Shown: positions 14,886 to 35,571 of the stretch, piece by piece
Layout of the letters: each line of letters begins with the position of its first letter
How positions within the stretch are numbered: the first letter of the stretch is position 1
NCBI RefSeq assembly: GCF_014636495.1
Contig: NZ_BMEM01000003.1
Coordinates: 186,001-250,000 of the forward strand
Reading direction: 5' to 3'
DNA length: 64,000 nucleotides
Source: Ornithinimicrobium tianjinense
GTDB lineage: Bacteria > Actinomycetota > Actinomycetes > Actinomycetales > Dermatophilaceae
Notes under the pieces: generated by a model
Told to the model about the DNA's origin: nothing
Database searches by the model: none
The model's input: the letters and a program-made list of their open reading frames with translations, nothing else
Program-made: the position numbers and the translations under genes

Positions 14886-17150
14886 TCAGCGGTGCCGCGC
14901 GGCAGCGGGACTCGGGTCGAGCCCGGCCTCCTCCCACTGCTGCAGGACAGCCTTCTCGCGCTCGGAGGGGATGAAACCGGAGGGTGCGAAGATCCGGGAC
15001 GGGACGTCCTCGGCCTCGCTCGTGGGCAGGCTGCCGGCCTTGATGGCCTTGACCCAGACGGCGATCGCCGCGGCCACCACGATGACCACCAGACCGGCGA
15101 AGACGATCGACATGATGCCCTGGATCATCGTGTTGGCGATGACCTGCTGCATGTCGCCGGCGTCCTTGGCCGGGCCGAGCACCTCACCCGCAGCGGCCGC
15201 CTCCTTGAAGCGGGTGTGCTGGGCGAAGTAGCCGATCTTCGGGTCGCCGCTGAAGATCTTCTGCCACGACGCCGACAGGGTGACGATGAGGTCCCAGGCG
15301 AGCGGCACGCCCGGGATCCAGGCGTACTTCAGCAGCCCCTGCTTGATGAGGATCGTCGTGACGACCGTCAGCGCGATGGCGGCCAGCAGCTGGTTGGCGA
15401 TGCCGAACAGCGGGAACAGCGTGTAGATGCCGCCCAGCGGGTCCGTGACGCCCATGACCAGGATCGAGCCCCAGCCGGCGACGACGATAATCGTGGCGAT
15501 CCAGGCGCCGACCGTCCAGGACGGGTCCTTGAACCGGCTCAGGCCCGGGATGTTGCCCAGTGCGTCGGAGAACATGAAGCGCGCCACGCGGGTGCCGGCG
15601 TCGACGGTGGTGAGGATGAACAGCGCCTCGAACATGACCGCGAAGTGGTACCAGAACGCCTTGAGCCCGGCGCCGCCGAGCGCGCCCGACATGACCTCCG
15701 CCATACCGAAGGCGAGCGTGGGAGCGCCACCGGTGCGGGACACGATCGACTCCTCGCCCACCGCCTGTGCCTCGGCGACCAGGGTCGCGGCGTCGATCGG
15801 GGGCAGCGGGGCCCCGCCGGGCGTGGTCAGGCCCAGGCCGTTGACGAACTCGGCGGCACCCTCGGGGGTGCCCTGGGTGAGCGCCTTGGCGGCGTTCATC
15901 GAGAAGTAGGTGCCCTGGTCGATGGTGATCGCGGCCACCATGGCCATGATCGCCACGAAGCTCTCGATGAGCATCGAGCCGTAGCCGATGAGGCGCGCCT
16001 GCGACTCCTTCTCGATGAGCTTCGGCGTGGTGCCCGAGGAGATCAGCGCGTGGAAGCCGGACAGGGCGCCGCAGGCGATGGTGATGAACAGGAACGGGAA
16101 CAGCGACCCGGCGAACGCGGGGCCTGCGCCGTCGCTGGCGAAGCGGGTCACGGCCGGCATCTGCACGACCGGCATCGCGACGAGGATGCCGACGGCGAGC
16201 AGGACGATCGTGCCGATCTTCATGAAGGTCGACAGGTAGTCGCGCGGGGCGAGGAGCAGCCACACGGGCAGGACCGCGGCGGCGAAGCCGTAGGCGATGA
16301 TCCACCAGGCCAGGGCCAGCGGGGAGAGGGTGAAGAACTCGGCCCACGAGGAGTTGGCGACCCAGCCGCCGGAGATGATGGCGAGGAGCAGCAGGACGAC
16401 GCCGATGACCGAGACCTCGGTGACGGCGCCGGGGCGCAGGTAGCGCAGGTAGACGCCCATGAAGATGGCGATCGGGATGGTCATCGCGATGGAGAAGACC
16501 GCCCAGGGCGACTCCGCCATCGCGTTGATGACGACGATGCACAGGACGGCGATCAGGATGAGCATGATCGCGAGCACGCCGACGATGGCGGCGATGCCAC
16601 CCACGCGCCCGAGCTCGTCGCGCGCCATCTGGCCGAGCGAGCGGCCACGGCGGCGGATCGACATGTGCAGGACCATGTAGTCCTGGACCGCCCCCGCGAG
16701 GACGACACCCACGATGATCCAGATCGTGCCCGGCAGGTAGCCCATCTGGGCGGCCAGGACCGGACCGACGAGCGGGCCGGCGCCGGCGATCGCGGCGAAG
16801 TGGTGCCCGAAGAGCACCCGCCGGTCCGTCGGCATGAAGTCACGGCCGTTCTCGAACTCCTCGGCCGGCGTCATCCGCGTGTCGCGCGGCTTGAGAACCT
16901 TCCACTCGATGAAGCGGGCGTAGAAGCGGAAGGCGATGAGGTAGGTGCAGACCGCGGCGAAGACGAACCAGACCGCGTTCACCTCCTCGCCCCGGACGAA
17001 GGCGATCATCGCCCAGCCGACGGCGCCGAGCGCCGCGATGATCGCGTACACGATGCGAGCCGTGGGGCTCATGGGGTCGGGGCCGCTGCTGCGGTCGACC
17101 GACACCGGTGGGAGGTCGGTGACCTCGGTTCGGGAGGGAGTTGTCGACAT
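14886..17150 (-). CDS. cstA: Carbon starvation protein CstA
   Basis: A 754-residue integral membrane transporter of the CstA family, which in E. coli imports peptides and pyruvate under carbon limitation. About 16-18 hydrophobic helices are visible. Conserved blocks: FGHHFAAIAGAGPLVGPVLAAQMGYLPG near residue 110, DYMVLHMSIRRRGRSLG, SGFHALISSGTTPKLI, and the C-terminal FGIANQLLAAIAL. ATG 17150 (MSTTPSRTEV) has AGGAG five bases upstream; the frame remains open far into the repeat region but without coding character. ybdD follows. The upstream region carries the unusual 22-bp repeat arrays. Confidence 0.95.
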   Translation of the reverse strand: MSTTPSRTEVTDLPPVSVDRSSGPDPMSPTARIVYAIIAALGAVGWAMIAFVRGEEVNAVWFVFAAVCTYLIAFRFYARFIEWKVLKPRDTRMTPAEEFENGRDFMPTDRRVLFGHHFAAIAGAGPLVGPVLAAQMGYLPGTIWIIVGVVLAGAVQDYMVLHMSIRRRGRSLGQMARDELGRVGGIAAIVGVLAIMLILIAVLCIVVINAMAESPWAVFSIAMTIPIAIFMGVYLRYLRPGAVTEVSVIGVVLLLLAIISGGWVANSSWAEFFTLSPLALAWWIIAYGFAAAVLPVWLLLAPRDYLSTFMKIGTIVLLAVGILVAMPVVQMPAVTRFASDGAGPAFAGSLFPFLFITIACGALSGFHALISSGTTPKLIEKESQARLIGYGSMLIESFVAIMAMVAAITIDQGTYFSMNAAKALTQGTPEGAAEFVNGLGLTTPGGAPLPPIDAATLVAEAQAVGEESIVSRTGGAPTLAFGMAEVMSGALGGAGLKAFWYHFAVMFEALFILTTVDAGTRVARFMFSDALGNIPGLSRFKDPSWTVGAWIATIIVVAGWGSILVMGVTDPLGGIYTLFPLFGIANQLLAAIALTVVTTILIKQGLLKYAWIPGVPLAWDLIVTLSASWQKIFSGDPKIGYFAQHTRFKEAAAAGEVLGPAKDAGDMQQVIANTMIQGIMSIVFAGLVVIVVAAAIAVWVKAIKAGSLPTSEAEDVPSRIFAPSGFIPSEREKAVLQQWEEAGLDPSPAAARHR

Positions 17151-17287
17151 GTCGCTCCTGTGACAGGCGATGAAGAGGGGACAGGTGAGTCCGTCGCGGA
17201 CTCTAGGAGCGGCCTCTCCCCAGGGCAAGAGGCGGGGTATGCCGTGCGCCGAGCGGTCCGGTCCGTGCGCCAGGCGGTCATCCCCCC

Positions 17288-17441
17288 ACCGGACAGGCGT
17301 TCCTGCCGGACCGGACAGGCGTTCCTGCCCGACCGGACAGGCCGCCGTGTCAGACCGGACAGGCCGCCGTGTCAGACCGGACAGGCGTTCCTGCCAGACC
17401 GGACAGGCCGTAGTGCCCAACCGGACAGGCGTTCCTGCCAG
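17288..17441 (+). repeat. Left array: seven direct 22-bp repeats
   Basis: Seven head-to-tail units start exactly at 17288, 17310, 17332, 17354, 17376, 17398 and 17420. Each begins ACCGGACAGG. Four are type A (ACCGGACAGGCGTTCCTGCC plus 2 nt), two are type B (tail CCGCCGTGTCAG) and one is type C (tail CCGTAGTGCCCA), in the order A A B B A C A. Each unit can fold as a small hairpin, for example CAGG-CGTT-CCTG. Confidence 0.97.
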
Positions 17442-17570
17442 ATGGCCGCAACACCGTGCACTGGCCACGGGAGATTGGTTGGCGACCGACGTCTTGACGT
17501 GCACGTCAGAGAGAAGTTGATAGTCCGACAGCGAGTTCCCGCTGACGTTGACGTCAACCGGCTCGGTCCC
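17442..17570. other. Core between the arrays, with two perfect palindromes
   Basis: A 129-bp segment of lower GC than its surroundings. It contains TGACGTGCACGTCA (17495-17508, perfect 14-bp palindrome) and GTTGACGTCAAC (17547-17558, perfect 12-bp palindrome), which share the half-site TGACGT. A promoter-like TTGACG (17494-17499) is followed 18 bp later by TGATAG (17518-17523); this is suggestive only. No ORF. Confidence 0.8.
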
Positions 17571-17724
17571 GGCAGGAACGCGTGTCCGGTCCGGCACTAC
17601 GGCCTGTCCGGTCCGGCAGGAACGGGTGTCCGGTCCGGCACGACGGCCTGTCCGGTGCAGCAGGAACGCCTGTCCGGTCTGGCAGGAACGCCTGTCCGGT
17701 CTGGCAGGAACGCCTGTCCGGTCC
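17571..17724 (-). repeat. Right array: seven 22-bp repeats in inverted orientation
   Basis: Units start at 17571, 17593, 17615, 17637, 17659, 17681 and 17703. Read on the minus strand from 17724 they give types A A A C A C A, aligning unit by unit with the left array, including the matching CCGTAGTGCC unit (left unit 6 against 17593-17614). The two arrays are thus arms of one roughly 154-bp inverted repeat. Confidence 0.97.
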
Positions 17725-17747
17725 GGTTGGGGGCGGTGGGGGACGGC

Positions 17748-19784
17748 TCAGGCGGGGGTGGGGGCGCCCTGTTCGTCGACCTCCACCGCGGCGCCGCGGA
17801 ACTGGGCGTCGTGGAGGCGGCGGTAGGCGCCGTCGCTCGCGAGGAGGACCTCGTGCGCCGAGCGGCCGGCGCCGCTGCGACCCTGCTGGACGATCCGGCC
17901 GTGCTCCATCACGAGGATCACGTCAGCGTCGCGGATCGTGGAGAGCCGGTGCGCGATGACGAAGGATGTGCGGTCGGCCCGCAGCCGCGCCATCGCCTCC
18001 TGGACGAGCAGCTCGGTGCGGGTGTCGACCGAGGAGGTCGCCTCGTCGAGGATGAGCAGGGAGGGCTGGGCGACGAAGGCACGGGCGATCGTGATCAGCT
18101 GCTTCTCGCCGACCGACACCGTGGAGCCCTCGTCGTCGAGCACGGTGTCGTAGCCGTCGGGCAGGTGCTGGACGAAGCGGTCCACGTAGGCGGCCTCGGC
18201 CGCGGCGCGGACCTCCGCGTCCGTCGCGCCGGGCCTCCCGTAGGCGATGTTGTCGCGGATCGAGCCCTCGAAGACCCACGCGTCCTGGAGCACCATCCCG
18301 ATGTGGGCGCGCAGCTGGCGCCGCGTCATCGTCGTGATGTCACGGCCGTCGAGGGTGATGCGCCCGCCGTCGAGCTCGTAGAAGCGCATGATCAGGTTGA
18401 CCAGCGTGGTCTTCCCCGCGCCTGTCGGCCCGACGATCGCGACGGTCTGCCCCGGCTCCGCGACCAGCGACAGGTCCTCGATGAGCGGCTCGGCGCCGTA
18501 GGAGAAGGAGACGTCCTCGAACTCGATCCGCCCGCGCGGGGCCTCCACCGGTGCGTCGCCGCTCGGGTCGGGCACCTGACGCGGCTCGTCGAGCAGCTCG
18601 AAGACCCGCTCGGCCGAGGCGACGCCCGACTGCAGGAGGTTGGCCATCGAGGCCACCTGGGTCACCGGCTGGGTGAACTGGCGGGAGTACTGGATGAAGG
18701 CCTGCACGTCGCCGAGGGACAGGGTGCCGTTGGCCACGCGCAGACCGCCGACGACGGCCACGAGGACGTAGCCGAGGTTCCCGACGAAGAACATCGCCGG
18801 CATGATGATGCCGCTGATGAACTGGGCCCTCCAGGTCACGTCGAAGAGCTGGTCGTTGGTCCGACGCATCGCCGCGGAGATCTCCTCGCGCCGGCCGAAG
18901 ACGGTCACCAGCTCGTGCCCGGTGAAGGCCTCCTCGACCTGGCCGTTGAGCGTCCCGGTGTGCGCCCACTGCGCGGTGAAGAGCTTCTGCGAGCGCTTGG
19001 CGATGAGCGCGGTGATGACCACCGAGACCGGGATGGTCAGCAGCGCGATGACGGTGAGCACCGGGGAGATCCACAGCATCATCGCGAGGATCGCGACCAC
19101 CGTGACCAGGGAGCCCAGCAGCTGCCCGAAGGTCTGCTGTAGCGACTGCTGGACGTTGTCGAGGTCGTTGGTGACGCGCGAGAGCACCTCGCCGCGGGGC
19201 TGCTTGTCGAAGAACGACAGCGGCAGCTGGTGCAGCTGCTCCTCGGCGTCGGCGCGCAGGTCACGCACCGTCCACATCGAGATCCGGTTGACGACGCGCA
19301 CCGAGACCCAGGTCAGGAGGGCGGCCACGGCATACAGCGCGACCACCTGGAGGATGACGCCGCCGAGCGCCTCGACGTCCACGCCCTGGCCGGGCACGAC
19401 GTGCGGCGTGCCCTCCACGAGGTCGGCGTAGGTGTCCTGGCCCTGCGCGCGCAGGTCGGCGACCACCTCGTCCAGCGGCACGCCGGCCGGGAGCCTGCGC
19501 CCGATGAACCCGGCGAAGACGTAGTCGGTGGCCCGACCCAGCACGCGCGGACCGAGGGTGCCCAGGACGACCCCGGCGATGCTGAGGAGCACCGCGAGCA
19601 CGACCCGCGCGCGGTAGGGAGCCAGCCGCCCGAGAAGGCGTCGCGCCGAGACGCCGAAGTTGCCGGCCTTCTCGACCGGCTGGCCGAAGGAGTGACCGCC
19701 CGGCCGGGGGCCGCGCGGTGGCTGCGGAGGACGACGGCTGGCGGCCGCGGTGGCCTCGTCGCTGGTGGTGGTCGGCTCGCTCAT
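17748..19784 (-). CDS. ABC exporter half-transporter, second gene of a heterodimer
   Basis: A 678-residue membrane-domain plus ATPase protein. Membrane helices occupy about residues 45-385 and the nucleotide-binding domain about 410-660. Walker A is GPTGAGKTTLVNL, Walker B LLILDEATSSVD with the catalytic Glu intact, and the H-loop is IAHRLST. The ABC signature is degenerate (VSVGEKQ instead of LSGGQ). Its start overlaps the stop of the upstream half-transporter by 4 bp, so the pair is coupled and should form a heterodimeric exporter of the TM287/288 or Rv1272c/1273c type. Substrate unknown; drugs or lipids are common for the family. The stop lies 23 bp from the right repeat array. Confidence 0.93.
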   Translation of the reverse strand: MSEPTTTSDEATAAASRRPPQPPRGPRPGGHSFGQPVEKAGNFGVSARRLLGRLAPYRARVVLAVLLSIAGVVLGTLGPRVLGRATDYVFAGFIGRRLPAGVPLDEVVADLRAQGQDTYADLVEGTPHVVPGQGVDVEALGGVILQVVALYAVAALLTWVSVRVVNRISMWTVRDLRADAEEQLHQLPLSFFDKQPRGEVLSRVTNDLDNVQQSLQQTFGQLLGSLVTVVAILAMMLWISPVLTVIALLTIPVSVVITALIAKRSQKLFTAQWAHTGTLNGQVEEAFTGHELVTVFGRREEISAAMRRTNDQLFDVTWRAQFISGIIMPAMFFVGNLGYVLVAVVGGLRVANGTLSLGDVQAFIQYSRQFTQPVTQVASMANLLQSGVASAERVFELLDEPRQVPDPSGDAPVEAPRGRIEFEDVSFSYGAEPLIEDLSLVAEPGQTVAIVGPTGAGKTTLVNLIMRFYELDGGRITLDGRDITTMTRRQLRAHIGMVLQDAWVFEGSIRDNIAYGRPGATDAEVRAAAEAAYVDRFVQHLPDGYDTVLDDEGSTVSVGEKQLITIARAFVAQPSLLILDEATSSVDTRTELLVQEAMARLRADRTSFVIAHRLSTIRDADVILVMEHGRIVQQGRSGAGRSAHEVLLASDGAYRRLHDAQFRGAAVEVDEQGAPTPA

Positions 19785-35540: not shown

Positions 35541-35556
35541 ACCGGACAGGCGTTCC
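35541..35556 (+). repeat. Solitary copy of the 22-bp repeat unit
   Basis: ACCGGACAGGCGTTCC repeats the first 16 bases of the type A unit from the 17.3-17.7 kb arrays, and then diverges (GGGCAGGA). It lies in the 124-bp gap between ligB and the acyl-CoA ligase, 15 bp before the latter's start; the variant tail supplies its ribosome site. Confidence 0.85.
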
Positions 35557-35571
35557 GGGCAGGATGTGCCC

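Follow-up and report, generated by a model that had tools for sequence, protein, structure and literature searches.

The closest described systems are the REPs, which, as far as the accessible part of one survey goes, are short, high-copy, extragenic sequences located mostly between convergent or unidirectional genes, often less than 20 bp from a 3′ end (PMC3733652). In that part of the survey, the end of the repeat can supply a TAG stop codon, opposed pairs occur, clusters are frequent in the GTAG families, and some REP families are species-specific (PMC3733652). The stems measure 5–13 bp in GTAG families and 8–9 bp in CGTC families, head-to-tail dimers are absent, rare or negligible, and RAYTs accompany the GTAG REPs (PMC3733652, in part). 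REP-like 3′-end repeats are described there mainly from Proteobacteria, as stem-loops, some of them apparently moved by RAYTs, and the word 'Actinobacteria' is absent from the portion of text available (PMC3733652). The dRS3 or NIME repeats of Neisseria, which correspond to CGTC-1 (PMC3733652, in part), are 20-bp repeats with 770 copies that cluster in intergenic mosaics, as the present repeats cluster between genes, but they have an 8-bp stem, are interleaved with other repeats and belong to another phylum (PMC2267715, in part). The TAACTGA repeats of Beggiatoaceae likewise form short direct-repeat arrays in many intergenic regions and have been proposed as binding sites, but their unit is 7 bp long and lies mostly just upstream of start codons (PMC4679880, in part).

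The repeats studied here differ from REPs in their 22-bp head-to-tail arrays, their 4-bp half-sites and their actinobacterial host. The MIRU of mycobacteria are actinobacterial tandem repeats that overlap stop codons, with units of tens of bp located in operons, but they contain no 22-bp dyad. Iterons and the ends of Tn7-type elements are composed of ~22-bp direct or facing protein-binding repeats, sometimes accompanied by DnaA boxes, whereas here dozens of arrays are dispersed at gene ends and the genes between arrays look ordinary. No description of these repeats was found in the literature searched, the coverage of which is without most subscription papers and all bioRxiv preprints; two of the unit strings occur in two published papers, both unrelated by title.

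The window, a stretch of 64,000 nucleotides from Ornithinimicrobium tianjinense, contains a pair of arrays with the following layout.

17571–17724, minus strand: minus array, seven 22-bp units running in the sense of the ABC exporter gene; its first unit lies 25 bp past the exporter stop codon
17288–17441, plus strand: plus array, seven 22-bp units, facing the minus array; its outer end lies 137 bp upstream of the cstA start codon
17442–17570, no strand: core between the arrays, 129 bp
17494–17508, plus strand: palindromic TTGACGTGCACGTCA motif, within the core; it occurs once in the 430,047 bases examined
17542–17557, plus strand: CTGACGTTGACGTCAA motif in the core; two occurrences in the 430,047 bases, the other in the core of the paired array L041 (4912)
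17748–19784, minus strand: ABC exporter gene, upstream of the arrays (Pfam ABC_membrane/ABC_tran)
14886–17150, minus strand: cstA gene, downstream of the arrays (Pfam CstA)

The paired inverted arrays of seven 22-bp units described in the first-pass annotation are real and stand at the coordinates it gave, between the stop codon of the exporter (17748) and the start codon of cstA (17150), as it had placed them. Each unit comprises 20 bp and a 2-bp spacer, with starts at 17288, 17310, 17332, 17354, 17376, 17398 and 17420 in the plus array and at 17571, 17593, 17615, 17637, 17659, 17681 and 17703 in the minus array. The arms (17288–17439 and 17571–17722, 131 nt apart) align nearly unit by unit, in agreement with the same annotation, and are 88% complementary over 152 nt; the rare CCGTAGTGCC variant occupies matching places, being the second unit from the inside in either arm (17398 and 17593). 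Compared by reading and numbered from the outside, the unit type agrees between the arms at six of seven positions, one of the six only roughly, so the plus array probably derives from the minus array by inverted copying. As a gene-end array, the minus array belongs to the ABC exporter. The placement of the plus array is exceptional: it is located upstream of cstA and not behind the end of a same-strand gene. The 129-bp core is probably the upstream DNA of cstA.

The two core motifs (17494–17508 and 17542–17557) are both palindromic and GACGT-rich and look like regulator sites, possibly of the MerR type, and the palindromic TTGACGTGCACGTCA motif is a possible operator. The paired array L041, which shares the CTGACGTTGACGTCAA motif, is located between genes for a glycerate kinase and an amidohydrolase. 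Between 17100 and 17800, we found neither a match to a sigma-70-like promoter nor an intrinsic terminator with a GC hairpin and U tract. The window also holds a single degenerate unit, ACCGGACAGGCGTTCCGGGC, at 35541–35560, 93 bp behind a plus-strand gene and shortly ahead of the following one.

The window arrays belong to a genome-wide family. Searching the own genome (3,309,481 bases in 12 contigs) with the 20-mer unit at up to three mismatches gave 125 + 128 occurrences, while the reversed pattern gave 0, which excludes a chance origin of the unit and dispels the concern, raised in advance, that the unit might be absent elsewhere. At least 64 of the 20-mers are exact copies, and a BLAST search with the left array returned 67 matches. 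In 35 further stretches of the own genome, selected around matches for holding units, most units stand in runs of 2 to 12 and some are solitary; unit spacing is mostly 22 bp and otherwise mainly 32–33 and 40–43 bp, with the longer spacers C-rich and differing in sequence between loci. The spacer layout is not that of a CRISPR array: most units are 2 bp apart, and the longer spacers are alike within an array. The exact unit is absent from the viral contigs searched; the genome contigs searched, from which records near the own genome were possibly excluded, contain four single exact 20-mers in unrelated taxa, which we take as chance. A mobile cassette between facing arrays was considered and rejected: among 24 gaps of 250–2500 bp between neighbouring runs or units, 17 contain called genes, which on reading look ordinary and do not form one homologous set.

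Being a draft in 12 contigs, the own genome has N runs within some of its arrays and contig ends that coincide with arrays or fall near them, as would fit inverted arms produced by misassembly. The window arrays, however, are without N, and tandem arrays are also present in the single-contig genomes G002, G004, G007, G012 and G025, making an assembly artefact extremely improbable. Assembly breaks or N runs in or near arrays are located at the start of contig C1, at the ends of contigs C3 and C5, and at loci L019, L026, L030 and L048; by eye, the array gap at L019 also contains an apparently ordinary hairpin terminator.

To describe placement, we classed runs of two or more units in the stretches of the own genome (G000) and of two other species of the genus, G004 and G012, whose stretches were taken from among the places listed. 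The three species gave 135 head-to-tail runs of 2–12 units, unlike the singletons and head-to-head or tail-to-tail pairs of REPs; 12 runs at a stretch edge or inside a called gene were dropped, leaving 123. With gene ends taken from a custom simple gene caller and not from an established annotator, the upstream neighbour is a same-strand gene in 95 of the 123 runs, and 76 begin within 30 bp of its end, at a median distance of 7, 4 and 6 bp in G000, G004 and G012, respectively. The other 28 runs, including the plus array of the window, are not behind a same-strand gene end. Sixty-four runs are between convergent genes, 48 between tandem genes and 11 between divergent genes, compared with 62 divergent gaps among 243 in the G000 stretches. 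The placement in convergent or tandem gaps (112/123) and within 30 bp of a same-strand gene end is thus REP-like.

The arrays also touch the stop codons themselves. For 101 runs, 29 lie at a distance of 0 or less from the stop codon, against a mean of 4.7 and a maximum of 12 in 5000 trials that placed the runs randomly within their gaps. The distances are quantised: a TGA stop shares its A with the unit in nine G000 runs and five G004 runs, a TAG stop lies inside the first unit in nine G012 runs and two G000 runs, and a TGA stop lies inside the first unit in three G004 runs. Where two opposed runs are separated by less than 400 bp, they point towards each other in 20 of 21 cases. Many other arrays are solo, and the close opposed ones face inward from two gene ends, so that the first-pass notion of one fold-back element proved too narrow. 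Solo arrays between tandem genes are sense in 21 cases and antisense in 11 (5 to 6 in G012 alone), which weakens a strictly polar role. A Rho-type C-rich leader was rejected, the C excess behind stops being about equal with and without the motif. Clustering near the origin seemed visible in G004 but not in G012 among the places listed.

In summary of the own genome, there are about 250 copies, mostly in head-to-tail arrays, most of which begin at a stop codon or immediately past it and run in the same sense as the gene. Their assignment to a family of REP-like extragenic repeats linked to gene ends is the best-supported part of our interpretation. The earlier statement that the layout matches no REP or BIME therefore fails for placement and stop-codon overlap, which are REP-like, and holds for the unit structure, the head-to-tail order and the RAYTs: the contiguous stem of the G000 unit is 4 bp and often broken, and RAYT (PF01797) has matches in 0 of 28 genomes, including the own genome, and in 5 of 14 control genomes. 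For comparison with the unpaired GTAG or CGTC tag at one end of REPs, the units of G000, G004 and G012 contain antisense CGTCCGGT/TGTCCGGT, and those of G007 contain GCGGCCGGT.

The unit itself has a common core. ACCGGAC carries 1.6–2.0 bits per base in G000, G004 and G012, and the information drops in the 3′ half in G012. What is mostly kept across species is ACCGG, five bases, CG, and then T two bases on; the units share ACCGG, a period of 22–23 bp and, in most cases, an imperfect dyad, ACCG-N6-CG(G/T)T, whose half-sites are spaced by 10 bp. The second half-site is absent from the G002 units among the matches listed, and ACCGG N5 CGNT pairs with other centres occur in G007, G026, G021 and G025. 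Spacings other than 22 bp are concentrated at steps of ~10 bp that keep phase with 22 (n = 40 locus-level values, p ~1.5e-4 against uniform, in a test chosen after the data had been seen). The period is not sharply defined, with a resultant of 0.52 at 10 bp, 0.51 at 9.5 bp and 0.50 at 10.5 bp, and off-phase spacings of 26, 27, 29, 34, 37 and 58 bp are present.

The helical phasing and the dyad half-sites suggest a DNA-bound dimer, and the position of the arrays at gene ends suggests a boundary against read-through. We therefore favour, at a probability of roughly 45%, a REP-like family of the genus in which the units are sites for a dimeric DNA-binding protein and the arrays are gene-end boundaries. 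Specifically, each unit would be a putative site for a dimer, with the half-sites ACCG and CG(G/T)T one helical turn apart; the units are two helical turns apart, and bound proteins would therefore line up on one face of the DNA. A filled array may then act as a transcription roadblock or terminator that insulates convergent and tandem neighbours. Arrays would grow by local tandem duplication, and units may spread between loci by copying or conversion. Local duplication predicts an excess of identity within arrays, and identity within arrays exceeds that between arrays in G000 and G012; G004 gave no such excess. The copy number, the placement, the scarcity of runs between divergent genes, the inward facing, the phasing, the information held in ACCGGAC, the recurrence of the paired motif with other centres, the identity excess in G000 and G012 and the arrays of the malQ–pepN region in five species count for the favoured reading. 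Counting against it are the 28 runs away from same-strand gene ends, the antisense solo arrays, the off-phase spacings, the G002 units with one half-site, the lack of an identity excess in G004, the apparent terminator at L019, the scarcity of positions common to distant species and the at least 64 exact 20-mers, which speak for copying more than for a short protein site. The first-pass guesses of a protein-binding array and of a terminator or insulator accordingly remain live.

The position of the arrays in sense behind stop codons would also suit structured RNA in 3′ UTRs, with hairpins that stop exonucleases or RNA polymerase, as proposed for REPs. The window region folded as one RNA strand has z = −22.6 against shuffles, an extremely good fold that is expected of any such inverted repeat. 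Single arrays are weakly structured: the median sense z is −1.0 in G000 (44 runs), −1.3 in G004 (18 runs) and −0.1 in G012 (33 runs), slightly below shuffles in the first two species, and the antisense values are −1.2, 0.5 and 0.0, so that the antisense strand folds at least as well as the sense strand in G000. Within single units, the hairpin CAGG-CGTT-CCTG ascribed to each of them can form in 7 of the 14 window units and not in the other 7, and the outer pairing, said to be kept by the variants, is lost in units 17332 and 17354, which end in TGTC, and in unit 17659, which ends in TGCT. The inner pairs fail in 31–45 of 85 distinct G000 units, and a single one of the 85, seen once, has changes at both positions of a pair with the pairing retained. 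In addition, Rfam gave no match at the gathering score in 16900–18100, the five matches there scoring 14–19 bits against cut-offs of 38–80. Conserved RNA hairpins in the units, and with them the earlier suggestion of selection on hairpin structure, are not supported, and we regard the structured-RNA explanation as unlikely.

Relatives have the same layout, each with its own species- or clade-specific unit. Among 58 genomes including the own genome, close copies of the unit are numerous, outside the own genome, only in G004 (21), another species of the genus with the unit ACCGGACGCGCGTTCCTGMC, and number 0 or 1 in the others. A looser tandem-pair pattern, run on 186 genomes of the family, gave many matches in G000, G004, G012, G017, G028 and G029 and fewer in G002, G024 and G030, and a family-wide scan for ACCGG N5 CGNT pairs added G007, G021, G025 and G026. 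The arrays of G007 and G025 are at stop codons, with units ACCGGCCGCACGGT... (22 bp) and ACCGGCGACACGGT... (23 bp), respectively; 200-kb samples of G001 and G006 contained no arrays of the G007 or G025 type. In total, four or more matches in at least one pair scan were obtained for 13 of the 31 genomes of the genus, and the other 18 have 0–2 in each, compared with 0–3 in 155 genomes of other genera and 0–1 in reversed controls. A stricter pattern, run on 396 genomes of the order, to which the genus contributes only two, matched only in the own genome. G007 additionally has other tandem repeats of 52–53 bp in convergent gaps (L212 10398–10498 and L215 11076–11198), hairpin-like by eye.

On an rpoB tree of 30 genomes (G005, G021 and G023 partial, G019 missing), the array-bearing species fall in one large subclade, apart from G024, the placement of which is weak; gaps in the distribution may reflect losses or units that escaped detection. 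Most array positions found are not common to distant species. Six region pairs match by both flanks when the 39 regions of G012 are compared with the 10 of its close relative G028; some of the stretches in these two (L119–L122, L135) were chosen with the same pattern, a choice that biases the figure towards shared positions. The malQ–pepN region contains arrays in G000, G004, G012, G024 and G029, each with its own species or clade unit. In the own genome, a gene lies between malQ and pepN (L027 4712–5614) with an array on either side; it has no Pfam match and could be a candidate array-binding protein.

Purely selfish extragenic repeats, copied to gene ends by some enzyme and tolerated at the least harmful 3′ flanks with no host function, explain much of the data nearly as well as the boundary reading. 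Consistent with such an origin, the unit is uniform and species-specific at mostly non-orthologous loci, presence on the rpoB tree is patchy, and few runs lie between divergent genes; furthermore, the TAG stops supplied by the first unit in G012 and G000 suggest that arrays ran into gene ends. Selfish copying does not predict the helical phasing, the inward facing or the arrays at one gene region in five species, and no Y1 transposase was found in the 28 genomes. We regard it as a serious contender, to be held tentatively.

The arrays might instead bind a replication or SOS protein that is already known. In G004, TTNTCCACAGG often comes after the innermost unit (34 matches at up to one mismatch with unit context, reversed control 0); this motif resembles a DnaA box and stands directly inside the innermost unit at loci L107, L051, L054 and L061. 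The G000 unit presumably resembles a LexA box (CGGAC-N4-GTTC). However, TTNTCCACAGG-type matches number 0–3 in the other 30 genomes of the genus and occur at few arrays in the own genome, and the GTTC half is missing from the units of G007 and G025 and from most G012 units among the matches listed, so DnaA or LexA sites seem very unlikely.

Returning to the boundary reading, its broadest form would be a genus-specific, DNA-level marking of gene ends, in which a putative dimer and its species-specific operator ACCG-N6-CG(G/T)T, set in phased arrays at stop codons, would stop or insulate transcription, with concerted change of the protein and its hundreds of operators from one species to the next. 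This broad form is doubtful. The family nevertheless presents, in an actinobacterial genus, the placement of REPs together with head-to-tail, apparently helically phased units and no RAYT found in the 28 genomes searched, and its unit is uniform within a species and different between species. An old question thereby becomes testable, namely whether gene-end repeats are selfish leftovers or a bound, functional boundary, and a further one is raised: how hundreds of dispersed copies change together.
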